IMG/VR virus record: IMGVR_UViG_3300000553_000137
Coordinates: 1-36,207 of that record
Length of the DNA: 36,207 bases
DNA from: a virus
Direction: 5' to 3' (one strand)
In this document: one piece after another, positions 2,329 through 35,485 of the stretch
How the letters are laid out: every line of letters begins with the position of its first letter
Position numbering within the stretch: the first letter of the stretch is position 1
Made by a program: the position numbers and the translations under genes
Notes under the pieces: generated by a model
What the model was told of the DNA's origin: nothing
Database searches by the model: none
The model's input: the letters and a program-made list of their open reading frames with translations, nothing else

Positions 2329-3085
2329 TAGAGTTGTGCTTGTAACGGGCGGGTTTGACTGCTTGCATAGCGGGCATATTGCCTACTTCAAAGCTGCTAA
2401 AGCACTTGGGCATATACTTGTTGTTGGAGTAAACAGTGATGCTTGGATTGCTCGTAAGAAGGGCCGAGCATTTATGCCAAGCACTGAGCGTATTGCTATT
2501 ATTGAAAACTTAAAGATGGTTGATCATTGTATATTGTTTAACGACGATGATGATACTGCAATCGAAGCAATTAATAACGTTAAAGCAATGTACCCAAACA
2601 GCGAGATAGTATTTGCTAACGGCGGCGATAGAACAGAATATAACATTCCTGAGATGAAATGTGCAGATGTTGCATTTGCATTTGGCGTTGGCGGCAAGGA
2701 TAAGCTCAATAGTAGCAGTTGGATATTAGATGAGTGGAAAGCGCCTAAAACTCTACGAGAATGGGGTTATTATCGTGTATTACATGACGTTCCAGGTCTA
2801 AAAGTGAAAGAATTAACCATCGATCCGGGCAAGCGCCTAAGTATGCAGAAACATTACGATAGATCCGAGTTATGGTTTATTGCAGATGGCGAAGCAACTG
2901 TTAGCGAGTACAGTATTGTTTACCCAACAACGCTACAAAATCCGCACCTACCCAAAAGTTCAACTCATCGCATACCAGAAGAACAATGGCATCAACTTGC
3001 TAACCCATATACTAGACCATGTCGCATAATTGAAATACAATATGGCGATCAATGTGTCGAAGAAGATATAGAAAGGAAAGATTAA
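2321..3085 (+). CDS. Cytidylyltransferase-like domain fused to a cupin domain
   Basis: 254 residues in two parts. Residues 1-135 form a nucleotidyltransferase of the cytidylyltransferase-like superfamily: VTGGFDCLHSGH carries the HxGH signature and MPSTERIAII the (S/T)TER signature, as in glycerol-3-phosphate cytidylyltransferase and the HldE/RfaE adenylyltransferase domain. Residues 150-250 look like a cupin of the mannose-6-phosphate isomerase type II kind (KRLSMQKHYDRSELWFIADGEA, then HRIPEEQWHQLANP and a C-terminal IIEIQYGD). This suggests activation plus isomerisation of a sugar phosphate or polyol phosphate in one polypeptide. It overlaps the methyltransferase by 8 bases, and its TAA overlaps the next ATG (TAATG). 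Confidence 0.8.
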   Translation: MINRVVLVTGGFDCLHSGHIAYFKAAKALGHILVVGVNSDAWIARKKGRAFMPSTERIAIIENLKMVDHCILFNDDDDTAIEAINNVKAMYPNSEIVFANGGDRTEYNIPEMKCADVAFAFGVGGKDKLNSSSWILDEWKAPKTLREWGYYRVLHDVPGLKVKELTIDPGKRLSMQKHYDRSELWFIADGEATVSEYSIVYPTTLQNPHLPKSSTHRIPEEQWHQLANPYTRPCRIIEIQYGDQCVEEDIERKD

Positions 3086-7182: not shown

Positions 7183-8211
7183 ATGTCAAAAAACGTACTC
7201 GTAACGGGTGGCGCAGGTTTTGTAGCCCATCACGTTATTGAAAACTTACTTAGAAATACTGATTGGAATATTATCAGTCTTGATCGCTTAGATTTCTCAG
7301 GCAACTTAAATCGCCTTGCAGATATGATGGATCAATTTGATGCGACAACTAAAAAACGTGTACGGGTTGTGCATCACGATTTACGTGCAGAACTTAACTC
7401 AATGTTACAATATGATTTAGGTGATGTTAATCTTGTATTACACTTAGCGGCAGGTTCTCACGTTGATCGCAGTATTGCCGATCCAATGAGCTTTGTGCTT
7501 GATAACGTTGTAGGTACTTGTAATATTCTAAACTATGCACGTACACTTCCTAACTTAGAACGCTTTATCTACTTCTCAACAGATGAGATCTTCGGCGCAG
7601 CTCCTCCTGGTATTAATTATGGTGAGCGCGACCGTTACAACTCAACTAACCCATACTCTGCTACTAAAGCAGGCGGTGAAGAACTTGCAGTTGCATACGA
7701 AAATACATATAAAATGCCAATCTTCATTACACACACGATGAACGTGTTTGGTGAAAGACAGCATCCAGAGAAATTTATCCCAATGTGTGTACGTAAAGTA
7801 TTAGATGGTGACACAATTACTGTACATAGTGATGTTAGTCGCACAGTAGCAGGTAGTAGACATTATATCCATGCCGCAGACGTTGCAGATGCAATGCACT
7901 TCTTGTTAAACTTAGATGATGCTAAACTTACTACTGACTTTGGCGGCGCCAAATGTCCTAAGTTCAACTTAGTAGGTAAAGAAGAAATCGATAATTTAAC
8001 GCTTGCTAAAATTATTGCGCAAGTACAAGGCAAAGAACTAAAATACGAATTAGTGGATTGTCATAGTTCACGTCCAGGACATGATTTACGTTATGCATTA
8101 AGTGGTGACTACATGCGCAGTTTAGGATGGGAACCAAAGTATTCATTAAGCCAACGTATTGGTGAAGTAGTTGAGTGGACACTTGCAAATGAGAGATGGT
8201 TAAGATGCTAA
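7183..8211 (+). CDS. rmlB: dTDP-glucose 4,6-dehydratase-like SDR (RmlB family)
   Basis: 342 residues, extended short-chain dehydrogenase. NAD-binding TGGAGF near residues 8-13; LHLAAGSHVDRSI near residue 87; the dehydratase-specific triad STDE at 132-135 (Thr-Asp-Glu); catalytic YSATK at 158-162; then MNVFGERQHPEKFIP for substrate binding. This matches RmlB, which makes dTDP-4-keto-6-deoxyglucose, the entry point to deoxysugars. The sequence is somewhat short and divergent, so a related NDP-sugar dehydratase (CDP or UDP) cannot be excluded. It starts a run of overlapping sugar genes and is probably transcribed from the late-like box at 7139. Confidence 0.88.
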   Translation: MSKNVLVTGGAGFVAHHVIENLLRNTDWNIISLDRLDFSGNLNRLADMMDQFDATTKKRVRVVHHDLRAELNSMLQYDLGDVNLVLHLAAGSHVDRSIADPMSFVLDNVVGTCNILNYARTLPNLERFIYFSTDEIFGAAPPGINYGERDRYNSTNPYSATKAGGEELAVAYENTYKMPIFITHTMNVFGERQHPEKFIPMCVRKVLDGDTITVHSDVSRTVAGSRHYIHAADVADAMHFLLNLDDAKLTTDFGGAKCPKFNLVGKEEIDNLTLAKIIAQVQGKELKYELVDCHSSRPGHDLRYALSGDYMRSLGWEPKYSLSQRIGEVVEWTLANERWLRC

Positions 8212-8867
8212 GAGATATATTTGATAATTTAGATTTACATTGCGGTAAATGGTCTGAGTACTTTGACATTTATGAACGACATTTTGCAAAATATCAAAAC
8301 AGAAAACCAGTTGTAGTCGAAGTTGGTATCTGTAGGGGCGGAAGTGCTGAGATGTGGAAGAAGTATTTTGGTACTGATGCTACTATTGTCGGCATCGATG
8401 TTGATCCAGTGTCATTTGAACAACGCCATCAAACTGAAGGTTGCATACAAGTAAATGGCAATCAAGGTGACCCTGCATTTTGGCAAGAGTTTCTAAAAAC
8501 ATATCCGCAAATTGATGTGTTCTTAGACGATGGTGGTCATCATATGAGTCAACAGATTGTTACGTTGCAACAAGTATGGCCACATATTGTTAATGGTGGT
8601 GTTTATATGTGTGAAGATACACATACTGCATACTGGCCAGAATATGGCGGCGGACTTAATAACCCACGTAGCTTTCTTGAATATGCAAAACAAATTTCAG
8701 ATACAATGAATGTTAATTACTATCGTGGCAATGACCGTCACCCTGATAATATTGCACTTGCTAAATTCTTTAAAGAACTAACCGGCATGCATTTTTATGA
8801 TAGCATTGTAGTAATGGACAAAAATGTCCGTAAAGAACAAATTCTTGTAACGAGTACACCAATATAA
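8196..8867 (+). CDS. SAM-dependent O-methyltransferase-like protein (TylE/MycE-like)
   Basis: 223 residues. VVEVGICRGGSAEMW near residue 38 is motif I; VGIDVDP is the ribose-binding acidic loop; FLDDGGHHMSQQIVTL near residue 109 resembles the metal-binding DDGSH region of macrolide-sugar O-methyltransferases (TylE, MycE, TylF) and of CmcI-type proteins. MCEDTHTAYW follows, as in these families. Overlap with the RmlB stop is 16 bases from 8196, or 7 bases if the second ATG at 8205 is used. It likely methylates a sugar hydroxyl made by the neighbouring pathway (inference). Confidence 0.8.
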   Translation: MVKMLRDIFDNLDLHCGKWSEYFDIYERHFAKYQNRKPVVVEVGICRGGSAEMWKKYFGTDATIVGIDVDPVSFEQRHQTEGCIQVNGNQGDPAFWQEFLKTYPQIDVFLDDGGHHMSQQIVTLQQVWPHIVNGGVYMCEDTHTAYWPEYGGGLNNPRSFLEYAKQISDTMNVNYYRGNDRHPDNIALAKFFKELTGMHFYDSIVVMDKNVRKEQILVTSTPI

Positions 8868-9604
8868 TGAAAAACACAGTCCTAGTAACATCGGCAGTAT
8901 ATACTAACTATGGTATATACGATACTAAACAGCGTATACAACAAACATTAGATACCGTTAAAAGCGCACGTAAGTATATCCCAGATTGTACTATTATTCT
9001 AATTGACAATAGCACTACTGCAATTGCGCAAGACGACAGTACAGAACTAAATGAACTAATTGATATTGTTGATTACTATATCGACAATAGTGATGACAAA
9101 GACATACAGCACTTCCATAACAATATTACTAATTACGACATTGGTAAGAACTCAATGGAGTGTATTGGTATGTACAAAGCACTTGCTTACATGTCGTCTA
9201 ATGCAGAGATAATGGATATTATTACAAGCTCATCACGCATATTTAAACTTAGTGGTCGTTATCAAGTTACTGATAAGTTTGACATTACTAAGTTTGATAA
9301 TGAAACAACTGTGGACAAATATGTGTTTAAGAAGGCACAAGCAAGTTGGATTGCAGAAGCTGATACCGGTGTAACTACATTGTTACAAACTCGTCTGTGG
9401 TCATTTACTCCGAGTTTGTTTGTTGATACAGTTCAGTTGTTTCAAAACATTCTAAAAAATATGTTTTCTACTATTAATAACGGCAAGTACATTGATGTCG
9501 AGCATAGTATGGCTAAGTTCATTCCAGCAGACAAGTTAGTTGAACTCGACACAGTTGGATTAATTGGTAATATTGCTCCAAACGGTATGGTAGTAGTTGA
9601 TTAG
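8867..9604 (+). CDS. Putative glycosyltransferase-fold protein (WavE-like)
   Basis: 245 residues. It begins with a Rossmann-like beta strand (NTVLVTSAVYTNYG), has CTIILIDNST near residue 46 (the position where GT-A enzymes hold a nucleotide-binding Asp) and FKLSGRYQVTDKFD near residue 140, which resembles WavE-like lipopolysaccharide synthesis proteins. No signal peptide or membrane segment. It overlaps the previous stop by one base (TAATG). Function as a sugar transferase is inferred from fold-like motifs and gene context. Confidence 0.6.
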   Translation: MKNTVLVTSAVYTNYGIYDTKQRIQQTLDTVKSARKYIPDCTIILIDNSTTAIAQDDSTELNELIDIVDYYIDNSDDKDIQHFHNNITNYDIGKNSMECIGMYKALAYMSSNAEIMDIITSSSRIFKLSGRYQVTDKFDITKFDNETTVDKYVFKKAQASWIAEADTGVTTLLQTRLWSFTPSLFVDTVQLFQNILKNMFSTINNGKYIDVEHSMAKFIPADKLVELDTVGLIGNIAPNGMVVVD

Positions 9605-9605
9605 C

Positions 9606-10808
9606 ATGGAACACGCAAAAGAACTTAACGAATGTTTATGTTGTGGAAGTAAACAGTTGACATTGGTGATGGATTTAGGCGAGCAACCACTTGCTAATAG
9701 CTTTATCGACGATACTGCTATTCCTGAATATATATTTCCATTACAAGTAAATCTTTGTACGGATTGTACTCATTTGCAATTAAGTCATGCAGTAAATCCA
9801 GACTTAATGTTTAAAAATTATCTATATGTAAGTGGTACAAGCAAAACATTGCGTGACTACTTTGATAGTTTTGCTAAGTCGACGTTGGATTATTTTACAA
9901 CACCACCAACGACTATGTTAGATATTGCATGCAATGATGGTTCGCAATTGAATTCATTTAAAGCATTAGGATTAAAAACATACGGAATTGATCCTGCTCG
10001 TAACTTGTATATGTTAAGTAGTGCCAAACATGAAGTGGTTTGTGATTACTTTACGGAAGAATATGTAGAGCATTTTAAATCTAAACATATAGATATTATT
10101 AACGCACAAAATGTATTTGCGCATACAAGTTATCCGTTAGAGTTTTTAATGATGTGTAAAGAAATTATGCATGACAATAGTCGCTTGTTCTTACAAACAA
10201 GTCAGGCTAACATGGTGCACAATGATGAATTTGATACTGTGTACCATGAGCATTTAAGTTTCTTTAATGTTGCAAGTATGCAGGCACTAGCTATTCGTGC
10301 AGGGCTGTATTTAATTGATGTAGAGAAAACTCCAATTCACGGAATTAGTTATAAATTTGTGTTTGCTACAGTGCCAGACTTTAAGTCGGGAGTCGAACAA
10401 CACCTGGCAGAAGAACGTGCATGGGGATTACAAGAGATTGATACGTACACTACGTGGGCAGAAAAATGTCAACAAGGGGTTGATGTACTTAAAGAAAAGA
10501 TTAAGGAATATCGAGCTGAAGGATATGTAATCGCTGGCTATGGTGCCGCTGCAAAAGGTATGACATTACTCAACTTTGGTAATATACAATTAGATTTTAT
10601 CATTGACGATAATCCATTGAAACAAAATTTGTTTACGCCAGGTATGCATATTCCTGTAGTATCAATTGACATACTTAAAGAAGTTGAAGATATGAATGTA
10701 GCATTTATTCCGCTAGCATGGAATTTCTTTGATGAAATAAGTGCAAACATTCGGCTAGTACGTAATAAAGAAGGTGACGTATTTCTTAAATACGCACCAG
10801 GTAACTAA
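9606..10808 (+). CDS. NDP-sugar C-methyltransferase (NovU/TylCIII/TcaB9 type)
   Basis: 400 residues in the three-domain layout of sugar C-3 methyltransferases. There is an N-terminal zinc-type domain (CLCCGSKQL, later LCTDCTHLQLS); a central SAM domain (TMLDIACNDGSQL near residue 100, INAQNVFAHTSYP near 165); and a Methyltransf_14 C-terminal domain (IAGYGAAAKGMTLLN near 312). The active-site YHEH signature is at residues 213-216, within DEFDTVYHEHLSFF, as in TcaB9. These enzymes methylate C-3 of dTDP-4-keto-6-deoxysugars, which RmlB/RmlC-type enzymes supply. I use the ATG at 9606; a TTG at 9597 is possible. Confidence 0.9.
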   Translation: MEHAKELNECLCCGSKQLTLVMDLGEQPLANSFIDDTAIPEYIFPLQVNLCTDCTHLQLSHAVNPDLMFKNYLYVSGTSKTLRDYFDSFAKSTLDYFTTPPTTMLDIACNDGSQLNSFKALGLKTYGIDPARNLYMLSSAKHEVVCDYFTEEYVEHFKSKHIDIINAQNVFAHTSYPLEFLMMCKEIMHDNSRLFLQTSQANMVHNDEFDTVYHEHLSFFNVASMQALAIRAGLYLIDVEKTPIHGISYKFVFATVPDFKSGVEQHLAEERAWGLQEIDTYTTWAEKCQQGVDVLKEKIKEYRAEGYVIAGYGAAAKGMTLLNFGNIQLDFIIDDNPLKQNLFTPGMHIPVVSIDILKEVEDMNVAFIPLAWNFFDEISANIRLVRNKEGDVFLKYAPGN

Positions 10809-19721: not shown

Positions 19722-20096
19722 ATGGCTACTGGATACGCTCACGCAACAATTGAACGGCAGTTTCTAGCAGAAACAATACGTAAAGCAAAGTACGCGGCAA
19801 AGACAACTAGGAATCTTGCTTTCCTAGTTGACTTGGACTATGTTATTGGTTTACTAAAAGCGCAGTCCGGCAAGTGTGCGATTACAGGTTGGGATTTAGA
19901 ATTTACACGCGGCGGGACCTTCAAGGGAAGTATGAATCCTCGAGGTTGCACGATGGATAGAATTGATAACGACAAAGGTTATATTCGAGGTAATATTCAA
20001 TTGACCTGTGTGTTGCCTAATATGATTCGGGGAACAATGTCGTTGGAGTCATTTAAATCTTTGTGCAATGATGTAGTTGCACATACAGGAAAATAA
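19722..20096 (+). CDS. HNH-like endonuclease
   Basis: 124 residues. The C-terminal half carries the degenerate HNH pattern seen in many phages: SGKCAITGWDLEF, then GCTMDRIDNDKGYIRGNIQLTC and LPNMIRGTMS, i.e. C..TG, DRID..GY..GN and a terminal Asn-x-x-Arg. The N-terminal helices are basic. It could be a homing endonuclease or a phage nuclease that acts on the host genome. No inserted intron or intein is visible at its borders. Confidence 0.75.
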   Translation: MATGYAHATIERQFLAETIRKAKYAAKTTRNLAFLVDLDYVIGLLKAQSGKCAITGWDLEFTRGGTFKGSMNPRGCTMDRIDNDKGYIRGNIQLTCVLPNMIRGTMSLESFKSLCNDVVAHTGK

Positions 20097-21451: not shown

Positions 21452-22245
21452 TGGCAACAAAAATTTTAGTAGTCGGATGTTCGTTTTCAAATGGTCATGG
21501 GCTCAATGATCAGGACAATGGCGATTGTAATAAATCTGATCCAAAACTTTGGGTTAATCAGGTATGCAATAAAGTTTGGCCTAATTCAGACATAACTAAT
21601 CTTGCGAAAACTGGAGCAAATAATAATTGGATATTCTTTGAAACTATAAGCGCATTATTATTAAATGAATATGATATTGTTTTAGTAGAATGGACGGCGA
21701 TACCTAGATTCAATATTAAAGTAGGATTAGAATTGTACACCGTTGAATCAATGTTAAATTCAGAATCAATTGATATTAATATTAATAACAATATAACTTA
21801 TACCAGTAAATGGCTAAACTCATTAGGTGATAATTTACGAAAAATACATAACGATCATTGGGATATTTTAGATCTTGTCAAATATATAAATGTCATATTG
21901 CAAATACACAAAGGAAAAACATTTTTTATCAATGGGTTGGCTCCGTGGCCAGATCAATATTTTACTAAGAAAAAAATTCAGTATCCATCTGAATTATCAA
22001 ATTTTGAACAAAATATGTTTGCTATAAGTACCAGAGATGACGATGAAATATTTGCTCTTTATGAAATGGTACATAATCAATATCAACAATATGGAGGAGT
22101 ACGTCAAGAGCATTGGTTAAATTTATATAGCTCATTGATGTCGATGCAAGTTGATTATATAAGCGATACAGATCTGCACCCAGGTTACAAAAGTCAAGAT
22201 ATATTTGCAGAATATTTAATATCACAACTAAGAGAAAATAATTAA
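21451..22245 (+). CDS. SGNH/GDSL hydrolase-like protein
   Basis: 264 residues, AT-rich codon use compared with its neighbours. The N-terminus ILVVGCSFSNGHG matches block I with the nucleophile Ser; GANNNWIFFE near residue 51 gives the Asn block; DLHPGYKSQDIFAEYLI near the C-terminus matches block V (Asp-x-His). SGNH enzymes remove acyl groups from sugars or lipids. It overlaps both neighbours by one base (TAATG) and lies between the HARP-like gene and uvsW, looking like an inserted cargo gene that kept translational coupling. Substrate unknown; a glycan acyl-esterase would fit the phage's sugar genes. Confidence 0.7.
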   Translation: MATKILVVGCSFSNGHGLNDQDNGDCNKSDPKLWVNQVCNKVWPNSDITNLAKTGANNNWIFFETISALLLNEYDIVLVEWTAIPRFNIKVGLELYTVESMLNSESIDININNNITYTSKWLNSLGDNLRKIHNDHWDILDLVKYINVILQIHKGKTFFINGLAPWPDQYFTKKKIQYPSELSNFEQNMFAISTRDDDEIFALYEMVHNQYQQYGGVRQEHWLNLYSSLMSMQVDYISDTDLHPGYKSQDIFAEYLISQLRENN

Positions 22246-23261
22246 TGGCACTAGCTAGACTGATAATCAAAGATGAAGTTAATGTAAAGATCGAAGGACT
22301 AGACTTACATGAACGCAAAGAACTCAGCAACATGTTCAAGTATGAAATTCCGGGCGCACGTTATCTACCAAGTGTACGTCTTGGTCGTTGGGATGGCAAG
22401 ATTGCTTACTTTCAGTTAGGTGGTAGCACGTACACTAACTTGCTTGCTGAGATATTACCATACTTAGATGAGCGTGGGTATAACATTGAGTTGGAAGATT
22501 TACGTGACTATAGAACACAGTTTAGTTTTGCGCAGGTAACAGAACAAACATTCGCACACAAAGTATGGCCAGCTAAACATCCGATTGCGGGCCAGCCAGT
22601 TGTGCTACGAGATTATCAAATTGAAATCATTAACAAGTTTCTTGAGAACCCACAGTGCATACAAGAAATTGCAACTGGCGCAGGTAAGACATTAATTACT
22701 GCGGCACTAAGTTATAGCTGTGAACAATACGGTCGTACTGTAGTAATCGTACCAAACAAATCACTTGTTACACAAACAGAAGCAGACTACATTAACTTGG
22801 GACTAGACGTTGGTGTTTACTTTGGTGACAGAAAAGAATATGGACGTACACATACAATATGTACATGGCAAAGTCTTAACATTATGCTTAAGAACACTAA
22901 GTCAGCAGAAGCCGATGTTACTATAATGGAATTTTTAGAAGGTGTTGTATGCGTTATGGTCGACGAATGTTTTGATAGTGATAGTAAGGTATTAACTCCG
23001 ACTGGATATGTGGCTATTAAAAATATAAAAGCTGGTGACAAAGTAATTAACTATTCGGAAAATACTAAAGAATTTAAGATAGATACTGTAGTTAAACAAC
23101 ATATAAATTTAACTAATTCGTCTAGCGAAAAAATGTATGAGCTAACCTTTGATAATGGAGTATCTATCCGTGTAACTGGCAATCATAAATTTTTAACTAA
23201 TTTGGGTTGGTGCAGGGCCGACGAATTATCAGATAACCATGAAATTGTAAATAAAACATAA
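22245..23261 (+). CDS. uvsW: UvsW helicase, N-terminal half with N-intein
   Basis: 338 residues. Residues 1-241 are UvsW: RLGRWDGKIAYFQLGG (the N-terminal UvsW domain), VLRDYQIEIINKF (Q-motif-like), ATGAGKT at 143-149 (Walker A), VVIVPNKSLVTQTE (motif Ia), and CVMVDE at the end of motif II. At residue 242 the DECH box is interrupted: Cys242 begins an intein N-segment of 97 residues (CFDSDSKVLTPTGY = block A; SIRVTGNHKFLTNLGW = block B), then a TAA. The C-terminal half with the rest of the motifs is a separate gene 916 bases downstream. The protein is thus inactive as a helicase until trans-spliced. Confidence 0.93.
   Translation: MALARLIIKDEVNVKIEGLDLHERKELSNMFKYEIPGARYLPSVRLGRWDGKIAYFQLGGSTYTNLLAEILPYLDERGYNIELEDLRDYRTQFSFAQVTEQTFAHKVWPAKHPIAGQPVVLRDYQIEIINKFLENPQCIQEIATGAGKTLITAALSYSCEQYGRTVVIVPNKSLVTQTEADYINLGLDVGVYFGDRKEYGRTHTICTWQSLNIMLKNTKSAEADVTIMEFLEGVVCVMVDECFDSDSKVLTPTGYVAIKNIKAGDKVINYSENTKEFKIDTVVKQHINLTNSSSEKMYELTFDNGVSIRVTGNHKFLTNLGWCRADELSDNHEIVNKT
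22968..23258 (+). mobile_element. Split intein, N-terminal segment (in uvsW)
   Basis: 97 residues starting with the conserved Cys1 directly after the extein Glu of the DEAH-type box (VDE|C). Block A is CFDSDSKVLTPTG. Block B has the TxxH motif (T-G-N-H in VTGNHKFLT) followed by GWCRADELSDNHEI. It ends with a natural stop and has no endonuclease domain. Size is typical of N-segments of naturally split inteins. It should associate with the 35-residue segment encoded at 24178. Confidence 0.92.
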
Positions 23262-23265
23262 ATAC
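23257..23265 (+). promoter_or_regulatory. T4-late-like promoter before the intein-borne nuclease
   Basis: CATAAATAC overlaps the stop of the N-half gene and lies 24 bases upstream of the nuclease ATG. Transcription would start near 23271. It suggests that the nuclease is expressed late and separately from uvsW. Confidence 0.5.
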
Positions 23266-23288
23266 ATATAACTAATGCAGAAGTCCTT

Positions 23289-24191
23289 ATGAAAATACAA
23301 TACAATAAATGGATAGAATTACTCAATGACAGACTAATAGAACATAATCAATCTATTAGAGTAATCGAGTACTCTAGTGGCACATTAACATTGTCGAGCG
23401 GTGAAACTTTACTAGATAATAAGTTTGAGAAATTTAAAAAACGAGTTATGAATAAAAAAACCACAATGTGGGTAGATAATATGGATAACTTATTCCATGG
23501 TACAGTTACTGAAAAAGAAATTAAATCTAAATTGGCGGCAATTGGCGGGTTGTCAGTACAAGAAAAATACGGTGAAAATATTAGATTAAATCTTAATACA
23601 GGTACCCCATGGAATAAAGGTACCAAAGGACAAAATATAGGTACAGGTACTCCCCGACCACAAGCAGTTAAAGACAAAATTAGTGAAAAAAATTCCGGCA
23701 ACAGAAATGGTATGTACGGAATTAAGATGACTGAACAAGATAGACAAAAAAAATCATCATTAATGAAACAAAAAATATTAGCAGGAGAGTTTACTCCTAA
23801 CAGCAATAATAGAAATACTCATTGGGACACGAAATTTAATAGTAAATCGTATAGGTCAAGTTGGGAGGCATTATATCAATATATTAACCCTTTTGCAGAA
23901 TACGAGACACTGAGGATAGAATATAATTTGCATGATAAAAGACATATTTATATTGTGGATTTTGTAGATCATGTCAATAAACTAGTGGTAGAAGTTAAAC
24001 CTAAAGAATTGTGCATTGGAGAGAAATTTGGTGCGAAAATGTCGGCACTAACTGCATGGGCCAACAATAATAACTATAAAACACTATTAGTTAATAAAAA
24101 GTGGTTACAAGAACAAGTAGTTGATATTGATTACAGTATGTTTGATACAAAAACTGCAAAAAAAATAAAGGCGTTATATGAAACTAATTAA
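23289..24191 (+). CDS. Free-standing homing endonuclease inside fractured uvsW
   Basis: 300 residues in its own frame between the two intein halves. Residues about 95-165 carry NUMOD3-type DNA-binding motifs (NTGTPWNKG; SGNRNGMYGIKMTEQDRQKKS). The C-terminal part has a restriction-fold or Vsr-like core: SYRSSWEALYQY (Glu), RHIYIVDFVD (Asp) and KLVVEVKPKE (ExK). This is the layout of the nucleases described with metagenomic fractured genes bearing split inteins (Dassa and co-workers) and of the I-Bth0305I/EDxHD group; membership of that family should be tested. Codon use is more AT-rich than in the uvsW parts. The last 14 bases overlap the start of the C-half gene. It would cut intein-free uvsW alleles. 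Confidence 0.85.
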   Translation: MKIQYNKWIELLNDRLIEHNQSIRVIEYSSGTLTLSSGETLLDNKFEKFKKRVMNKKTTMWVDNMDNLFHGTVTEKEIKSKLAAIGGLSVQEKYGENIRLNLNTGTPWNKGTKGQNIGTGTPRPQAVKDKISEKNSGNRNGMYGIKMTEQDRQKKSSLMKQKILAGEFTPNSNNRNTHWDTKFNSKSYRSSWEALYQYINPFAEYETLRIEYNLHDKRHIYIVDFVDHVNKLVVEVKPKELCIGEKFGAKMSALTAWANNNNYKTLLVNKKWLQEQVVDIDYSMFDTKTAKKIKALYETN

Positions 24192-24282
24192 CCGAACAGA
24201 AATATCTAAACCGGCCAATGTATATAATTTACATATAGAAAATGACCACAACTATATTGTCGACGGAGCAGTGGTGTCAAAT
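24178..24282 (+). mobile_element. Split intein, C-terminal segment (in uvsW)
   Basis: 35 residues from ATG 24178: KPANVYNLHIENDHNYIVDG is block F and VVSN the end of block G, with the terminal Asn followed by Cys+1. The penultimate residue is Ser instead of the usual His, as in the Npu DnaE split intein (ASN|C), which splices very fast. The length is typical of natural split-intein C-segments. Confidence 0.92.
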
Positions 24283-25017
24283 TGTCATATGGCCAAAGCG
24301 GATGCGCTGAAAACTTTATTAACGGGAGTGATGTCACACATACCTATCCGATGGGGCTTAACGGGCACAATACCTAAAGAAATGTACGAGTTTATGAGCC
24401 TAAAGTGTTCATTGGGTGAAGTCATTGGGCGTTTAAGTGCAAGTGAATTACAAGATCAGGGTGTACTTGCTAACTGTCATGTAAACGTTGTACAGCTAAT
24501 AGACCATGTTGAATATAAGGATTATCAAAGCGAGTTAAAATATCTATTAGAGACAGACGCACGTATTGATTATATAAGTAAAATGATAGAGCGTATTAGA
24601 TTAACTGGCAATACACTTGTCTTAGTTGATCGCATCGCACCGGGCAAAGCATTAGTTGAGCTAGTTAAAGATGCTGTGTTTGTATCAGGAGGAACAAAAG
24701 CAAATGATAGGAAAGAAAGTTATGATGAGTTTGCAACCAGTGATAACTTTGTTGCTGTTGCCACTTATGGGGTTGCTGCTGTTGGTATCAATATCCCTCG
24801 CGTTTTTAACCTTGTGCTCATTGAGCCTGGTAAGAGCTTTGTGCGGGTCATCCAAAGTATCGGGCGTGGCATTCGTAAAGCGGAAGACAAAGATTTCGTC
24901 CAAATCTGGGACGTAACGTCAACTTGTAAGTTTGCTAAACGACATCTTACAGTCAGAAAGAAATTTTATTCTGAGGCCTCATATCCTTACGCAATAGAAA
25001 AAACCGAATGGAAATAA
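24178..25017 (+). CDS. uvsW: UvsW helicase, C-terminal half with C-intein
   Basis: 279 residues: a 35-residue C-intein then 244 residues of UvsW beginning CHMAKADALKTLLTG, which completes the DE|CH box (T4 UvsW also has DECH). Later helicase motifs: WGLTGTIPK (III), LVLVDRIAPGKALVE (IV-like), VATYGVAAVGINIPR (V) and VIQSIGRGIRKAEDK (VI, QxxGRxxR). The spliced product would be 241 + 244 = 485 residues, close to T4 UvsW (about 500). The start ATG lies in the last codons of the nuclease gene (14-base overlap). No clear ribosome binding site is seen, so expression is probably coupled to that gene. Confidence 0.93.
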   Translation: MKLINRTEISKPANVYNLHIENDHNYIVDGAVVSNCHMAKADALKTLLTGVMSHIPIRWGLTGTIPKEMYEFMSLKCSLGEVIGRLSASELQDQGVLANCHVNVVQLIDHVEYKDYQSELKYLLETDARIDYISKMIERIRLTGNTLVLVDRIAPGKALVELVKDAVFVSGGTKANDRKESYDEFATSDNFVAVATYGVAAVGINIPRVFNLVLIEPGKSFVRVIQSIGRGIRKAEDKDFVQIWDVTSTCKFAKRHLTVRKKFYSEASYPYAIEKTEWK

Positions 25018-25036
25018 TTAATCAAGGAGCATTAAA

Positions 25037-25189
25037 ATTCACATCCTCACCTTAGAAAATACCGCATACGAAATGAATGAAATCCCAGATGAAGTGGAGG
25101 ATTTACGCTTTGCGCTATTTGGATTGAATTCTGACAGATTATGTAGACCAAAAGATTTTAGCAACACCACCATACCTTATGAATACTAA
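25037..25189 (+). pseudogene. Truncated 5' duplicate of the gene at 26066, apparent ATT start
   Basis: A 50-codon frame preceded by AAGGAG (25024-25029). The first 26 codons (HILTLENTAYEMNEI, then PDEVEDLRFA) match the start of the 166-residue protein at 26066 at every residue after the first codon, which is ATT here and ATG there. About eight synonymous third-base differences separate the copies. After LRFA the sequence becomes unrelated (LFGLNSDRLCRPKDF...) and stops at TAA 25187. It could be an expressed fragment or a dead copy. The downstream cassette (25179-26053) lies between the two copies, as if its arrival duplicated the target's 5' end. Confidence 0.65.
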
Positions 25190-25397
25190 CATAGTTTGCG
25201 CTATGTTGGAATATTTTGATACAAATGCAATTAGTATTACAGATAATGTAGGTGTAATATTACCTGCTGATCCAAAGTGTGCGGACTATTATCTGTATAA
25301 CGCATGGATTATTAAAACAAAACAAATTGATCAAATAGTATGGTCTGATGAACTTGTTGCTAGTTTGCCATTTGACAGAACATTACGTAGACATTAA
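25179..25397 (+). CDS. Hypothetical protein, 72 aa
   Basis: Starts at 25179 inside the end of the truncated duplicate, or at the second ATG (25203). Segments: MLEYFDTNAISITDN, ADPKCADYYLYNAWIIK and ELVASLPFDRTLRRH. No domain recognised and no good ribosome binding site. A short stretch (TGATCCAAAG ... CGGACTATT) is shared with the gene at 26066, so part of it may also derive from the duplication. It may be a real small gene or a mosaic remnant. Confidence 0.45.
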   Translation: MNTNIVCAMLEYFDTNAISITDNVGVILPADPKCADYYLYNAWIIKTKQIDQIVWSDELVASLPFDRTLRRH

Positions 25398-25417
25398 ATT
25401 TAGAAAAGGAAACAACA

Positions 25418-28652: not shown

Positions 28653-29386
28653 TTAACGACATTGTTAGCGCATGGAAGGATAGCAACATAGCAAAGCCCG
28701 CGGGATATACGTGTAAGTATTGCGAGCGTAGTTTTCAACGTGAGAAAACACTTGCTGCGCATCAGTGCGAACCAAAGCGCAGATGGCAACAGGAAAAAGA
28801 AGTCGGTGTACAGTTTGGCTTACAGGCATACTTACGCTTCTTTGAACTGAGTCAAGGTAGCGCAAAGACAAAGAGCTACGAAGATTTTGTTACAAGCCCT
28901 TACTACACAGCATTTGTTAAGTGTGGCAGATACATGATTGATGTACGTGCAGTGAACCCAAAAGCGTTTATTGAATATGTACTTAAACAAAACAAGAAGA
29001 TTGATCATTGGACACACGAAGTAGTATACTTAGAATACTTACATCAGTATATGCGCAAAGAAGCAGTGTCGGATGCGCTTGAAAGAGCATTAACGGAGAT
29101 GCAAAAATATGTGGACGAAAATACAGAATTATTTCCGAATGGGTTCAGAGACTATTTTAGAGTGGCTAATCCAAACCGTGTTTGCCATCATATTGCTAAT
29201 GGGCGTGTCAGTCCTTGGATTGTGTTTAACTGTGATTCGGGCATTGCATTTCTTGGTGAGTTGGGCGAAGAGCAAGTTACACAAATAATTAAAATGATTG
29301 ACCCGGAGTACTGGCAACGTAAGTTTAAAGATTACTTGGCTGATACTGAATGGACTAAACAGATTTTAAAAGATGCCGGGCTATGA
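28649..29386 (+). CDS. Zinc-finger phage protein, 245 aa
   Basis: A C2H2/C2HC-type finger lies at residues 20-42 (YTCKYCERSFQREKTLAAHQ, Cys22, Cys25, His38, Cys40). The remaining 200 residues are helical and unclassified, with DFVTSPYYTAFVKCGRYM near residue 88 and DYFRVANPNRVCHHI near 168. Nucleic-acid or protein binding through the finger is expected. ATGA overlaps at both ends place it in one translation unit with gp62 and the DnaE-like protein. Probably a conserved replication accessory protein; no named family. Confidence 0.7.
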   Translation: MINDIVSAWKDSNIAKPAGYTCKYCERSFQREKTLAAHQCEPKRRWQQEKEVGVQFGLQAYLRFFELSQGSAKTKSYEDFVTSPYYTAFVKCGRYMIDVRAVNPKAFIEYVLKQNKKIDHWTHEVVYLEYLHQYMRKEAVSDALERALTEMQKYVDENTELFPNGFRDYFRVANPNRVCHHIANGRVSPWIVFNCDSGIAFLGELGEEQVTQIIKMIDPEYWQRKFKDYLADTEWTKQILKDAGL

Positions 29387-29970
29387 CAATTAAGTTTAAA
29401 TCCGACATTGATATCGATTTTGCTGACCGAACAGAGATATTGAATTTAATAGATCATGTACCTGCGAGCATACTAACTAATGGTAATTTTCGAAAACATG
29501 CGTCTGGAATCTATGTAACGGACATCCCACAAGACCCATTTACAGCACAAGCAAGTATTGATTATGATGTTGCTGAAGATAGAGGTTATGTTAAACTGGA
29601 CTTTCTTAACGTAAACTTATACAAGCAAGTACGTGACGAAGCACATTTAATTGAACTTATGCGTGAACCGGACTGGGCTCGACTATATGACCCAGACTTC
29701 TGTGCGCAATTGATGCATGTAAATGCACATTATGATACATTGATTAAAATGCCCGAAGCAGTAAACACTATTCCGCGACTAGCAATGTTCCTTGCTATCA
29801 TACGTCCTGCAAAGCGACACTTGGTTGGTAAAACTTGGAAAGAAGTTGCTGAAACTGTGTGGGATAAACCCGATGATGATACTTATTACTTTAAGAAGGC
29901 GCATTCGATTTCGTACAGCCAATTAGTTGTTGTTAATATGAATTTAATAGAAGAACAATTAATGTTGTAA
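29383..29970 (+). CDS. Mini protein related to bacterial DNA polymerase III alpha (DnaE)
   Basis: 195 residues that line up with pieces of the C-family polymerase palm. SDIDIDFADRTEILNLIDHV (Asp8, 10, 12) matches DnaE PDFDVDFCMEKRDQVIEHV with its catalytic Asp pair. FRKHASGIYVTD (residues 37-47) matches GKHAGGVVIA. DYDVAEDRGYVKLDFLNVNL (60-79) matches [20 protein letters not shown]. The about 110 residues between the first two blocks in DnaE are reduced to a few, and the PHP, fingers and tau-binding parts are absent, so it cannot be a normal polymerase. T4-like phages use a B-family polymerase. Regulatory or structural reuse of the fold is inference. Confidence 0.65.
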   Translation: MTIKFKSDIDIDFADRTEILNLIDHVPASILTNGNFRKHASGIYVTDIPQDPFTAQASIDYDVAEDRGYVKLDFLNVNLYKQVRDEAHLIELMREPDWARLYDPDFCAQLMHVNAHYDTLIKMPEAVNTIPRLAMFLAIIRPAKRHLVGKTWKEVAETVWDKPDDDTYYFKKAHSISYSQLVVVNMNLIEEQLML

Positions 29971-30648
29971 TCGTTTTAATTCGGCAACTTTTCTGGCAGC
30001 ATCTCCTAATTTTCTTTTATGCTCTTCTGTTCTAACAGGTTTTGGTTTTCTTAATTTAGCCTTTCGTTCTTCGGATAATGGTATTCCCTTCAACTTCGAT
30101 ACTTTGCCTGTTTGTGAGATTGATTTCTTCCGTTTGGTTTCTTCTGAATCGGGTATTCTGTGTTTGTGTGCTTCGCTCATTTTTAATTTAGTTTCGAGTG
30201 AATGTTTCTTTCGTGCGATACCTTTTTGTGCATTGGAAATTTTTTGTCGTGTTTCTGCAGAACACACACGCTTTGTTAATTGTTGGGTTACCAAATTTGA
30301 TCTTTCTATTCTTAAATTTTCATACACCCTGCTAGTGATGTTAGTGGTATATCTAGGTTGAGTAACAGACATTCGCTTCATTGAAAACAACGCAAAAATC
30401 ATCGATGTTCGACCTGGGCCAGTGGTAATTTTACTTAATAACCAATGACAAATAAAATGTTCTCTTGCTGTTAATTTAACTAAATTACCTAATTCGTTGC
30501 TTCCTAATAAAGAACGAGGAATAATATGATGAGTTTCGTAATATACATACTCGGGATTACTTTTTTTTAATTTTTTTCGATTCTGTGATTTTGCGGTATT
30601 GATTATATTATAATACCAGATAGTGTATTTGTTATTAATAAATAACAT
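29959..30648 (-). CDS. HNH homing endonuclease with NUMOD3 repeats
   Basis: 229 residues. HNH core near residues 38-70: YYETHHIIPRSLLGSNELGN then KLTAREHFICHWLL. The C-terminal half is a string of basic NUMOD3-like repeats (SAETRQKISNAQKG; SLETKLKMSEAHKH; DSEETKRKKSISQTG; SEERKAKLRKPK; TEEHKRKLGDAARK), DNA-binding helices of homing enzymes. It is on the opposite strand, tail to tail with the DnaE-like gene (12-base overlap). AGGAGT precedes its ATG. A free-standing mobile nuclease in the manner of T4 Seg/Mob proteins. Confidence 0.88.
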   Translation of the reverse strand: MLFINNKYTIWYYNIINTAKSQNRKKLKKSNPEYVYYETHHIIPRSLLGSNELGNLVKLTAREHFICHWLLSKITTGPGRTSMIFALFSMKRMSVTQPRYTTNITSRVYENLRIERSNLVTQQLTKRVCSAETRQKISNAQKGIARKKHSLETKLKMSEAHKHRIPDSEETKRKKSISQTGKVSKLKGIPLSEERKAKLRKPKPVRTEEHKRKLGDAARKVAELKRLQH

Positions 30649-31130: not shown

Positions 31131-31625
31131 GTGCCACTCATTACTTCATATTTATACGAGAATATTATCGAGGTTCAGATTCTGGACACAAATCCCACAA
31201 TTAAAACAAGGAATAATGTCGTGTATAGCAGACCAATCAAAATTTACCAAGGAATAGATAATCCTGTTCAAGTTCATATTAAGAATCAAGATCAAAAATC
31301 AGTAAATTTGACGGGCTATGCAGTACAAATAGACATACAAGATCCATTAGTACAAGGGTCGATGGAAAGTTTAGCTGTAGACATGACAGACATAACAACA
31401 GGACAAGGTACGGTAATTATTACACGTGATGTTGTAAACTCGTTAGATCAACGATACTATAAACTAACTATTAAATTAATTAAACAAAGTAATAATGCAG
31501 AACGCCCGTTGTATATTGACAGCAACTTTGGCGCACTGTTAGATTTAGAAGTATTACCGGGTTGGTATGAAAGCATGCCACTCACATTAAACTCAGATGA
31601 AGTAATTGACGGTGGAACAATATAA
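31131..31625 (+). CDS. Virion structural protein, BppU-N-like
   Basis: 164 residues from a GTG at 31131 with AAGGG (31116-31120) upstream. Middle part: IKIYQGIDNPVQVHIKNQDQ, then KSVNLTGYAVQIDIQDPL, the beta-sandwich pattern of phage baseplate upper protein N-terminal domains and related fibre-attachment proteins. It ends GWYESMPLTLNSDEVIDGG. It follows a late promoter and is directly before the long fibre gene (stop TAA overlaps by one base), so it probably links the fibre to the baseplate. Confidence 0.65.
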   Translation: MPLITSYLYENIIEVQILDTNPTIKTRNNVVYSRPIKIYQGIDNPVQVHIKNQDQKSVNLTGYAVQIDIQDPLVQGSMESLAVDMTDITTGQGTVIITRDVVNSLDQRYYKLTIKLIKQSNNAERPLYIDSNFGALLDLEVLPGWYESMPLTLNSDEVIDGGTI

Positions 31626-34600
31626 TGACAATATCATATAGCAAACAAGTATTATTAAAAAGAGGCAATACTGCGGTATCGAGTACATATCTTGGACCGC
31701 TGGGTGAGTTAGTATTAGATACTGATACATTAAATGTATATGTACACGATGGCGTAACTGTAGGTGGTACATTAATAGGTACGGGCACAGGCGGTACTGG
31801 TGGCAGCATTTATGGTGACGCTAATGTTGCGGCTTATTTGACAAGTATCGGATATAACCCATACGGTGATTCAAATGTTGCTACGTATCTAGGTGCGTTT
31901 GATGGTAACATCGTTCCATCGGCAAATAATGTTTATAGTTTAGGTAGTATTGATAGTCAATGGAAGGATTTGTTTGTTAGTAATAACACCATTTACATCA
32001 ATGGTGTGCCATTAACGTTGGGCGCAGATAATACTTCATTGAGTATTAACGGACAACCCATATTAAGCAACGGTAGTATTAGTAGTTTTAGTACAACAGG
32101 TAATATCGCAGCCAGCAACTTCTTTATAACTGATGGTGTTCCCTTAACAGGCAACATAGCATTTGCTGGTGATCAAATTATTAATTCAGCTGGAAATGAT
32201 ATCCGTATTGTTGCCAATAACAATACGTGGGCATTTGGCACAGATGGAGTAATTACGTTCCCAGACAACACAGTACAAACTACAGCATATCCGGGAGATG
32301 GTGCAATCGACACACATAGCTGGGTTAACAAATTATCATATCCTGTTAATTCATCTATTAATCCAATAGCAGTAACATCTACAGAATATGACAGTCAAGG
32401 TAATATTATTGCGCTAGTACTTAATTATTCAAATGGACCAGATTTTGTCACTGTTATGAAGTTTGATCAATACGGGTCATTAATCGGGCAAGTTAACTAT
32501 GCTGATACTTTTAATATTGATGGCTGGGGACTGGCAGTTGATCTAAATGACGATAGTATATACATTACCGGTTCCACTGCCGGCGTACTTGATACTGAGA
32601 TATTTATTACTAAATTAACTAGCGAACTGGTGGCAGTATGGACAAATACTTACGGCACACCACAAGACGATAATGGGTATGTTATTGACGTAGCATCGGA
32701 TGGCAACCCAGTTATAGTTGGTATATCATCAGTTACTGCTATTACTATATTAAAAGTTGCTAGTGCAGATGGAGCAGTTATCTGGCAACAAGAATTAATT
32801 GCGGCTACAGGCAGTTCTCAAGCATACGGAATGGGAGTAGGCCCAAGTGGCGAGATTGTTGCGGTTGGCAATAGATATGACGTTGGTGATTCTACTAATC
32901 GTCAATTAGTTGTAAAATATGATAGTACTGGCGCAATACAGTGGCAAAAAGAATTATTAATGGATGCTGGCTTTGAGTGTCGTGGTGCTGATGCAGATAT
33001 AGATAGTAGCGGAAATATTTACGTACTTGGTACTTACGATTGGGCCAGTGGTACCGGTCTTAGCGTAACGCAACTTAACAGTTCAGGAGTGGCACAATGG
33101 ACACGTAAAGTACAAGGACCGTGTAATGAGCTTGCATCTAGTATAGTATGCGGCCAAGATGGTTTCTTATACTTAGAAGCGACATCAGGAACTGCTATTA
33201 CTGGCCCTGATATAAGACTTGATAAATTAATAGCCAAATATGATACAAGTGGTGCAGTTATATGGCAACGTAAATTTTCATCGGCAGTTAATTGGCAAGT
33301 AGATTTTAATTTCTTCACTAATGGTATTGCTGGCGGCAGCTTGTTAGCAGTTAGAAATGGTTTATTTGCCGTGGGTGGATTACAAACTCCTCCTTATTTC
33401 GGCGGTGGCCCATCACAGTGGAACGGTCTAGTATTTCAAACTGCTACAAGTGGGGTTGAAGTCACTATGGGAGAATATACATTTGCAGCAAGTAACTTAT
33501 CTGGTATATTAACTACACCGTTTAATACTGCTGATGCTGGATTAGTAACTCAGACAGGTAACTTATCTCAATTTAACACATACGCAATCACATTATCGTC
33601 GGGCAGTGTTACTTCGACACATACCGGTACTGAGAATCTTGGTAATTTTATATTCTTTAAAGATACTGTTAGAGTTGATAATGGAATGACAGTAATTACC
33701 AACCGTGGAACATTAAATATCGGTACTAATATGGAAATGCCCGGCGTTCCACAACATTTTCATATTGCCTTTGATGGTAGTAATGGCACAGCCCCAACCA
33801 GTGACTTATTCTTAGGAGATGATTGGAATTATACAAAAATACCAGCAGGACGTAATGGAGTTATTATTGGTGCTGGTAACTTAGGTGGCAACGCACAACA
33901 ATGGAACTTTGGTATCGATGGCAATTTAACATTGCCTAACTCTGCTACCATTTCTGACCTTAAGGGTGGAGCAACAGCATTTAGTTCTATAGGCGGCGTA
34001 CAAATTAACACAGCAGCAGGTACTTGGCAATTTGGTGGTGATGGCAGTTTAACATTACCGGGTGGTGGTACAATCACTTCTGCTCTTGGCTCGCCACAAC
34101 AAGGACTTTGGTTAGGATGGAATGGACATAAATTATTACTGAACGATGACGGTCAATTTTGGACGGGCGGGGTTCAGCTAGGCGGTAGTGGACACCCAGG
34201 TTATGTTGGGTCATATGGCAACATAACGCTAGATACCAATATTGGTGCTACTCCCGGCGATTCAAAATGGGTCTTTGGAACAGATGGTTTGCTAACATTC
34301 CCAGATGGACAACTAATTGGATCTCTAGAAGGCTCTGCTGGTATCTTTGGTCCAAACGGAACAGATTTTTTAATCAATACTCGCTTTGATAACACAGGTT
34401 CTTATCAGGCGTGGACATTTGGCACCAATGGTATATTAACATTACCATTTGGTAGCACTATCAATGATACACCGTTAGCCCCAGGTGCAGGCGGTAATGG
34501 CCAGGCTGTTGAGATCAAACCAGGCCGCGTCAGCCATAATAATCAACTATTAAGAATATATCCCACAGCTCCTAATCCAGACGGCAATCACCTACACTTA

Positions 34601-35485
34601 ACTTCAGGCGATCTCACAGACACTGATTTGTTCCTAGGCGATGACAATCAGTTTGTACAAATTGCTGTTGACGGTAAAGTTTGTATTGGTACTTATGGTA
34701 CTGAAGGACATTTCTGGCAGTTTGGCACAGATGGTACAACTTCATTTCCTAACAATGCTATTACCACATCTAATACACCATTAACAATACAAACTAAATT
34801 ACCTGCTACATATGGTCCGTTTTACACAGCGTATTTTGAAAGTGGCAATGGCAGTGTAAACGGTGTTCATCCGGGAACTTATGCTGGATATTTTAGTATT
34901 ACTACTGTCAATATTAACAACGATGGAACATATTCAGTTAGTGGTTACCCAGCATCTATACAGAACGGAACTAATCCAACTTATACAATATCGGGTGTAG
35001 ACTTAGGCGGTACTTCCCCTGCCAACGACTGCCTATTAACTGTTACCACAGTCGATGACATTATTACAAATGTAGTAGTATCCGGTACTGCGCTTTTACC
35101 TAAATGGACCTTTGGCACAGATGGTTCGTTGACATTACCTGGTGCAATTATTACAACTGCAAACACTTCATCATATACCAGTACAACGGTTACTGTTGAT
35201 ATTACTGCATTAGTTAATAAATTAGTACCACAAGCAACAACAGGTGCCCCACATTATTATATTCCTCCAGGAACTGATGGACAAATTATGTATCTTGTTC
35301 CGGCAAATATACATAATGACGGCAGTGAATCAACAACGATAAGTTTTGATAATGCTCGTTGGTCAAGTGGCGCAGGTCCAATTTATATTAGTGAAGGCGC
35401 AAGGCCAAGTTGGCTTCCATTTGCAGCCGGTTCTGCTGTTGTAACAATCATATTCGCTAATGGTGCATGGAATCTTCCATACTAG
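31625..35485 (+). CDS. Large tail fibre / receptor-binding protein with a predicted six-bladed propeller
   Basis: 1286 residues. Residues 8-52 have the Mtd-type N-terminal pattern (VLLKRGNTAVSSTYLGPLGE, then LNVYVHDGVTVGG). Residues about 235-560 contain six blade-like repeats ending in (K)xxxxGxxxW or similar (KFDQYGSLIG, KLTSELVAVW, KVASADGAVIW, KYDSTGAIQW, QLNSSGVAQW, KYDTSGAVIW), as in SBBP/NHL-type propellers. Seven copies of a W-x-F-G-x-D/N-G...P motif lie at residues 202, 760, 801, 882, 930, 1031 and 1161 (e.g. WTFGTDGSLTLPG), probably beta-helical shaft repeats. Gly/Thr/Asn-rich, no cleavage signal. Likely binds the host surface. Confidence 0.82.
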   Translation: MTISYSKQVLLKRGNTAVSSTYLGPLGELVLDTDTLNVYVHDGVTVGGTLIGTGTGGTGGSIYGDANVAAYLTSIGYNPYGDSNVATYLGAFDGNIVPSANNVYSLGSIDSQWKDLFVSNNTIYINGVPLTLGADNTSLSINGQPILSNGSISSFSTTGNIAASNFFITDGVPLTGNIAFAGDQIINSAGNDIRIVANNNTWAFGTDGVITFPDNTVQTTAYPGDGAIDTHSWVNKLSYPVNSSINPIAVTSTEYDSQGNIIALVLNYSNGPDFVTVMKFDQYGSLIGQVNYADTFNIDGWGLAVDLNDDSIYITGSTAGVLDTEIFITKLTSELVAVWTNTYGTPQDDNGYVIDVASDGNPVIVGISSVTAITILKVASADGAVIWQQELIAATGSSQAYGMGVGPSGEIVAVGNRYDVGDSTNRQLVVKYDSTGAIQWQKELLMDAGFECRGADADIDSSGNIYVLGTYDWASGTGLSVTQLNSSGVAQWTRKVQGPCNELASSIVCGQDGFLYLEATSGTAITGPDIRLDKLIAKYDTSGAVIWQRKFSSAVNWQVDFNFFTNGIAGGSLLAVRNGLFAVGGLQTPPYFGGGPSQWNGLVFQTATSGVEVTMGEYTFAASNLSGILTTPFNTADAGLVTQTGNLSQFNTYAITLSSGSVTSTHTGTENLGNFIFFKDTVRVDNGMTVITNRGTLNIGTNMEMPGVPQHFHIAFDGSNGTAPTSDLFLGDDWNYTKIPAGRNGVIIGAGNLGGNAQQWNFGIDGNLTLPNSATISDLKGGATAFSSIGGVQINTAAGTWQFGGDGSLTLPGGGTITSALGSPQQGLWLGWNGHKLLLNDDGQFWTGGVQLGGSGHPGYVGSYGNITLDTNIGATPGDSKWVFGTDGLLTFPDGQLIGSLEGSAGIFGPNGTDFLINTRFDNTGSYQAWTFGTNGILTLPFGSTINDTPLAPGAGGNGQAVEIKPGRVSHNNQLLRIYPTAPNPDGNHLHLTSGDLTDTDLFLGDDNQFVQIAVDGKVCIGTYGTEGHFWQFGTDGTTSFPNNAITTSNTPLTIQTKLPATYGPFYTAYFESGNGSVNGVHPGTYAGYFSITTVNINNDGTYSVSGYPASIQNGTNPTYTISGVDLGGTSPANDCLLTVTTVDDIITNVVVSGTALLPKWTFGTDGSLTLPGAIITTANTSSYTSTTVTVDITALVNKLVPQATTGAPHYYIPPGTDGQIMYLVPANIHNDGSESTTISFDNARWSSGAGPIYISEGARPSWLPFAAGSAVVTIIFANGAWNLPY

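Follow-up and report, generated by a model that had tools for sequence, protein, structure and literature searches.

Several enzymes of DNA metabolism, reportedly of eight types and mostly in phages, are said to have been described by Dassa et al. in 2009 (NAR) as products of fractured genes, in which the coding sequence is broken in two, a split intein lies at the break and a free-standing endonuclease is encoded between the halves. A split PolB intein with an HNH nuclease is described for the jumbo phage MIJ3 (PMC6892783). In this work, we analyzed the gene of the DNA-repair helicase UvsW in a stretch of viral DNA of 36,207 nucleotides (nt), which comprises positions 1 to 36,207 of the IMG/VR record IMGVR_UViG_3300000553_000137 and is referred to as the window. 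An earlier note on this DNA had read the locus as a uvsW gene broken by a split intein, with what is probably a homing nuclease encoded between its two parts, and this core reading is supported by the comparisons reported here: to judge from sequence, the uvsW locus is very probably a mobile split-intein cassette. The basic layout is of the known fractured-gene kind; what is unusual is the series of states around it.

The split gene is encoded by three close-packed open reading frames (ORFs) on the plus strand, at 22245-23261 (338 amino acids, aa), 23289-24191 (300 aa) and 24178-25017 (279 aa), with the following features:

22245..22967, plus strand: UvsW N-extein, 241 aa, terminating in ...VMVDE, the first half of motif II (Pfam ResIII; PHROG 16259, E 4.1e-64)
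22968..23261, plus strand: N-intein, 97 aa, with Cys1, a block-B-like TGNHKFL and the TAA stop at 23259-23261 (TIGR01445, 40.9 bits)
23258..23265, plus strand: ATAAATAC element, 31 nt upstream of the nuclease ATG (promoter-like by position only)
23289..24191, plus strand: free-standing predicted nuclease, 300 aa, NUMOD3-like at about residues 126-154 and with a PD-(D/E)XK-like domain at about 178-283 (motif, structure model)
24178..24282, plus strand: C-intein, 35 aa, with terminal VVSN, its start overlapping the nuclease end by 14 nt (TIGR01443, 20.0 bits)
24283..25017, plus strand: UvsW C-extein, 244 aa, opening with C-H of motif II (the Cys being residue +1), plus the stop (Pfam Helicase_C; PHROG 9690)
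22956..24350, plus strand: tract identical to the viral-contig locus L012, made up of the 1,315-bp cassette with 12 nt on its left and 68 nt on its right, +1 codon included (DNA comparison)

The ORF positions and the 916 bases between the uvsW halves agree with the earlier note, which had erred in one detail: the nuclease is not in a frame of its own, it shares that of the N-half, with no more than the TAA at 23259-23261 and nine sense codons between them. The C-half is in a different frame, its first 14 nt lying within the nuclease ORF. The PHROG 16259 match spans residues 6-336 of the first ORF. As had been proposed, the break falls exactly between E and C of motif II (DE/CH), and the joined exteins form a protein of 485 aa that aligns with the uninterrupted UvsW of Phosso, Atu_ph07, PAC2 and Vibrio phage 2.275.O without insertion or deletion at this motif. 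The locus has the hallmarks of a fractured gene: one enzyme is encoded in two ORFs that rejoin without loss, the N-intein stands on the first and the C-intein on the second at the break (both TIGR models above their cut-offs), and the ORF between them probably encodes an endonuclease, to judge from motif and modelled fold.

Class 1 inteins are defined by Cys1, a block-B TxxH motif, a terminal Asn and Cys, Ser or Thr at +1, all of which are present. Cys1 occupies position 242 of the N-half (window 22968), and the 35-aa C-intein ends in VVSN, followed by C-H (window 24283). The intein_Nterm model TIGR01445 scores 40.9 bits on the N-half (cut-off 24.5) and the intein_Cterm model TIGR01443 scores 20.0 bits on the C-half (cut-off 15.6), which agrees with the previously proposed Cys1 N-intein of 97 residues and C-intein of 35 residues ending in VVSN before the Cys. 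The Pfam Intein_splicing model matches the N-half exactly at its cut-off (35.8 of 35.8 bits) and the C-half far under it (13.6 bits). The sequence of the one-piece intein matches solved inteins with a best E value of 2.4e-9.

The same insertion was found in other phages. Cultured phages with the same intein and nuclease, as identified by search, are S16, STP4-a, SEA1, CF-SP2, AKM_NP4, UTK0003 and Proteus phage PM2, and alignment of S16, PM2 and SEA1 showed the same insertion site as in the window. The earlier note was unsure of a precedent in uvsW; the window is not the first in sequence records, as Salmonella phage S16 with its relatives and Proteus phage PM2 carry this layout. Literature searches, which covered open papers, found no description of a split intein in uvsW. 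Searches of viral contigs gave 40 loci with the N-intein and at least 12 with the nuclease, and a broader N-intein profile added a survey of the best 80 of 204 relatives. In total, 73 distinct uvsW N-intein sequences were compiled from loci L007-L057 and L142-L221, near-copies and the window locus included. DE precedes Cys1 in all 73, and N/CH follows the intein in 69; three of the others are fetched pieces lacking the C part, and one is unreadable. N-inteins in other genes are at most 45% identical, among the 40 listed of the 67 phage records with a similar N-intein, and the two matches in genome contigs, both 31% identical, are in Acidimicrobiia bins.

Residue +1 differs between inserted and empty loci. 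It is Cys in 53 of 53 inserted rows (near-copies and re-fetches of the window included; 32 distinct extein rows with enough coverage), whereas the 84 empty loci, 80 of them viral contigs picked by similarity to a Cys-bearing query and four of them phages, have Val in 78 cases, Ala in three and Cys in three. The 12 inserted loci that were printed have TGY as the +1 codon, and the Val loci have GTN. In the extein tree (108 rows, columns 236-247 left out, quick search), the insertion needs 15 changes, and the window is nested among empty DEVH alleles, which are the other six members of its starred set of seven rows. Among independent pairs on starred branches, the +1 residue follows the insertion in 7.3 of 8 on average and never the reverse (median p 0.016). 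The immediate right flank of the window matches the inserted loci L007 and L012 and not the nearest empty relatives L068 and L069, which differ from the window at the +1 codon and at many further places.

Because these nearest empty relatives have DEVH and all inserted relatives examined have DECH, the Cys+1 of the window's clade appears, most simply, to have arrived together with the cassette, co-conversion being the route that we infer. The suggestion in the earlier note that the helicase motif itself supplies this Cys therefore does not hold for the window. Loss of an intein together with its Cys by recombination with a Val allele is an alternative that would produce the same coupling; the nested position of the window in the tree favours gain. 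Since T4 uvsW has DECH with no intein, and three of the 84 empty loci have Cys, Cys+1 can also be native.

Comparison of cassettes supports their recent transfer between diverged phages. The 1,315-bp cassette of the window has 0, 2 and 2 mismatches to those of L012, L007 and L010, respectively, while the flanks are 71-78% identical. The identity extends beyond the cassette by 12, 12 and 18 nt on the left and by 68, 68 and 17 nt on the right, and L013, which is cut inside the N-intein, agrees with this footprint on its right side. Between L015 and L019, the nuclease region is 98.2% identical, and the synonymous divergence (dS) is 0.00-0.06 in the parts of the cassette versus 1.25-1.62 in the exteins. 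The intein parts of L040 and L043 are likewise near-identical (dS 0.05 and 0.00), with a C-extein dS that is inestimable, as expected at saturation. At a larger distance, the window and S16 are 26% identical in the N-extein, 28% in the whole C-half and 64% in the N-intein; the S16 exteins are 74 and 80% identical to those of T4.

The ORF between the halves was previously called a NUMOD3/PD-(D/E)XK-like nuclease. For the window copy, both family matches fall under the Pfam cut-offs (NUMOD3, E 0.08; TnsA-like, E 0.0014); the relative in L040 passes both (24.8 versus 20.4 bits for NUMOD3 and 35.5 versus 26.5 bits for TnsA-like), and that in L029 stays under the TnsA-like cut-off. The PD-(D/E)XK part of the proposal gained core residues and a probable fold. 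The pattern E ... D ... E-x-K is present as E193, D224 and E235-x-K237, with E193, D224 and E235 invariant in 19 of 19 nuclease sequences and K237 nearly so. In the structure model (predicted local distance difference test, pLDDT, 82.8; predicted template modelling score, pTM, 0.46), residues 178-299 align best with TnsA (Z 7.8 and 7.7), less well with Vsr (Z 6.1) and, at Z 5.6, with the homing nuclease I-Bth0305I, and a search of solved structures with the nuclease sequence profile gave none up to E 10. The fold is thus supported, not proven, because all Z scores are below 8. Relatives of this nuclease also sit between annotated terL halves, right after DE, in phiR1-RT and others, and in Thanatos-2 a relative is fused to the terL N-half.

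Other endonuclease-like ORFs are present in the window. A homing endonuclease-like ORF is located on the minus strand at 29959-30648 (PHROG 655, E 1.8e-36), facing and adjoining a 195-aa DNA polymerase-like ORF on the plus strand (29383-29970; PHROG 11778). At 19722-20096, there is a 124-aa endonuclease-like ORF (PHROG 3322, E 3.4e-20; endonuclease VII-like PHROG 1035) with no Pfam match.

Among the 73 compiled sequences, 50 are split with the nuclease, 14 are split without it, six form one ORF and three are pieces ending before the C-half. Remains of the nuclease 3' end were found upstream of the C-intein start in L016, L032, L043, L045, L151, L153, L174/L177, L185, L192 and L212. Those in L152, L155, L169, L182 and L217 were not counted, because the respective codons overlap the C-intein start, and no such fossil was detected in L160, L163, L166 and L194. 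In the intein tree, which has 72 rows and an unsettled bootstrap, the presence of the nuclease needs 18 changes, no fewer than with shuffled labels (mean 17.4), so that its history appears scattered; repeated loss of the nuclease is supported by comparison among the relatives. The N-intein and nuclease of L206 form one ORF of 419 codons from Cys1 to the stop. In L169 and L217, where the gaps measure 1 and 5 nt, the frame is the sole evidence of a split, and a one-ORF form could be masked by a base error. Mean net charges of the two intein halves are -2.8 and 0.1 in split forms with the nuclease (n=50), -0.6 and -0.6 in split forms without it (n=14) and -4.5 and -0.5 in one-ORF forms (n=6), a difference that is weak and not specific.

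One of the one-ORF forms, L016, supports a reversion from trans to cis, with re-fusion across the remains of the nuclease. It was found in five contigs and has 633 codons from the upstream stop; read in the nuclease frame, its linker still gives FDNNTARKIKTLYETN, and a single block of 899 alignment columns is missing relative to L015, L017 and L019. It stands beside the fractured L015/L019 in the extein tree (100, starred) and beside L015/L017 in the intein tree (98/92, starred). The direction of change is indicated by the linker fossil, the missing block and this position beside fractured forms taken together. L182, also in one ORF, is sister to the fractured L052 in the intein tree (97/86, starred) and has no usable fossil. 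The remaining forms L155, L160, L163 and L194 have long branches of unsettled placement in that tree and may be old cis forms. As a nuclease fossil was recognized in only L016 of the six, the other five could all be old cis forms.

Four distinct loci carry a second split intein in the Walker A motif of the same gene, giving a uvsW in three pieces with inteins in Walker A and motif II and up to two different nucleases:

L028 2778-7065 (locus L028/L142)
L144 3441-7729
L036 2775-6197 (locus L036/L145/L032)
L143 4309-6031, with L056

The first ORF ends with GAGK and an N-part of 28 residues (L028, L143) or 39 residues (L144, L145), followed by a stop. Next comes a different nuclease, of which the L028 copy matches DUF559 above and REase_MTES_1575 below the cut-off; in L143 it is reduced to a remnant. 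The middle ORF consists of a putative C-intein (133 aa in L028, with terminal HHN before the T of GKT), the middle part of UvsW and the motif-II N-intein, and the last ORF is the known motif-II C-half. The C-part is present in six contigs, one of them cut; no family model named it, and its assignment as a second C-intein is based on where it lies, how it ends and how cleanly UvsW resumes. For L143 with L056, 10 nt between the pieces are unread, and no stop was observed for the middle piece. In L036 and its kin, the motif-II nuclease is lost and uvsW is still split at that site.

Three other explanations of the locus were considered. Phage genes split by homing nucleases can function without splicing, as NrdA of Aeh1 and gp43 of phage 25 do (PMC2988022), so UvsW might assemble as a two-subunit helicase with idle intein halves. 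This is improbable, since Cys1 is kept in 73 of 73 sequences and N/CH in all 69 readable ones, and the contrast between Cys+1 in every inserted row and Val in nearly all empty loci is what splicing needs. In addition, the ratio of nonsynonymous to synonymous divergence (dN/dS) is low in both intein halves, 0.015-0.32 where estimable, and this comparison supports purifying selection against amino-acid change in them. Excision at the RNA level, for example of a group I intron at 22968-24282 before translation, would have a counterpart in the uvsW of phage LIMEstone1, for which an intron with a nuclease is reported (PMC3296691). Such an intron is very hard to reconcile with the intein models matching both edges, with intein parts that are open and in place in split and one-ORF forms alike, and with the lack of any Rfam family match up to E 1, group I included, in 21900-25400. 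About equally implausible is a chimeric assembly, or the decay of a cis-intein gene combined with sequencing errors. A single TAA between the N-half and the nuclease, which L206 joins in one ORF, would speak for this; however, the same split layout with the nuclease occurs in 50 of the 73 distinct viral-contig sequences and in cultured phages, and the C-half is out of the nuclease frame, with its own Met start, in the window and most relatives printed. As for a chimera at 23261-24178, which the earlier note had named as a finding that would refute its reading, it is excluded because the window DNA is 100% identical to two other contigs over 10,303 nt, one of them of 329 kb, and to a third over 7,575 nt. 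An intact read-through uvsW in the same phage, named by the note in the same way, is absent from the 329-kb contig, where a UvsW search matches the two halves only. The same holds for the 360-, 117- and 103-kb contigs of relatives (four of four with the 329-kb contig; these records may be incomplete). In the 360- and 117-kb contigs, the search reported one TAA within the C-half match; the C-half of L029, read directly, is open to its own end.

Several observations weigh against a functional split intein moved by a homing nuclease. The penultimate residue of the window intein is Ser and not His (VVSN, compared with ALAHN in S16), His being the commoner but not universal residue at this position. 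Many dS values are saturated or inestimable, and the maximum dN/dS of 0.32 was obtained for a pair in which dS is very low. The structure model of the one-piece intein was poor (pLDDT 62) and was not used. An unrelated mitoribosome chain (Z 6.4) is among the matches of the nuclease fold, and Foldseek returned no match with E <0.001 for the nuclease model. Finally, the evidence for mobility consists of sequence comparisons.

In the favoured reading of the locus as a mobile split-intein cassette, two polypeptides are encoded, UvsW 1-241 with the N-intein and the C-intein with UvsW 242-485, whose intein halves would associate and trans-splice to restore a helicase with an intact motif II. The nuclease would cut uninterrupted uvsW near motif II in co-infecting phages, and repair would copy the cassette across. 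The copied tract, short but spanning the flanking codons, would bring the Cys+1 required for splicing into hosts that otherwise have Val. With less assurance, yet still as the likelier account, we propose a homing element that bears its own splicing nucleophile, turning DEVH into a site with Cys+1, and whose split and one-piece states are reversible: nuclease loss usually leaves a split gene and can be followed by re-fusion to cis, and in some phages two cassettes divide UvsW into three polypeptides that would need two trans-splicing reactions. If Cys+1 indeed travels with the cassette, the element need not wait for a host with a usable +1 residue, and its range of possible homing sites would be wider. 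The natural series at one site, from empty through split with or without the nuclease to one-ORF and three-piece forms, could be used to test how split inteins arise and what becomes of them. Many natural split-intein pairs could also be drawn from it as protein-joining tools, including atypical splits with an N-part of 28 or 39 residues.

The ATAAATAC element upstream of the nuclease occurs in 20 of the 25 distinct printed cassettes, where its reading frame varies, and is absent from S16, PM2 and three nuclease-less forms. Its interpretation as a phage late promoter was not adopted: part of the counts in the first test stemmed from the cassette. Once the cassette was left out, only 11 contexts remained; four of these lie 10-55 nt upstream of ORFs (p 0.0003), and far stronger results were obtained for other motifs, e.g. 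TATAATAA. Elsewhere, the window encodes a Radical SAM protein, a nucleotide-sugar epimerase-like ORF and methyltransferase-like ORFs (3052-4647, 7183-8211, 8196-10808), as well as a protein of 1286 aa with a Major tropism determinant N-terminal domain (31625-35485).

Compared with known systems, the window shares with MIJ3 PolB a jumbo-phage replication gene that holds a split intein and a nuclease ORF, and differs in gene, in site and in that the MIJ3 nuclease is of the HNH type. A further likeness is to uvsW of S16 with its relatives and of PM2, whose annotation gives helicase genes on either side of a hypothetical protein and which share the DE/CH site, the gene order and a related nuclease, with N-inteins 58-62% identical to that of the window over the aligned stretch. 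These phages differ in belonging to the Straboviridae, in that the uninterrupted T4 homologue is natively DECH, and in that the N- and C-halves share a frame, the nuclease being in another. The split terL genes of phiR1-RT and Thanatos-2 (L004, L005), annotated as terminase genes, resemble the window in their related nuclease and in the break right after DE, which we take to belong to the Walker B motif; they differ in the enzyme, a terminase, and in the fusion of the Thanatos-2 nuclease to the N-half. The fractured genes attributed to Dassa et al. (2009) are reportedly of the same layout as the window uvsW, whereas the forms of one site that lack the nuclease, are re-fused or are in three pieces, like the probable arrival of Cys+1 with the cassette, come from the present analysis.

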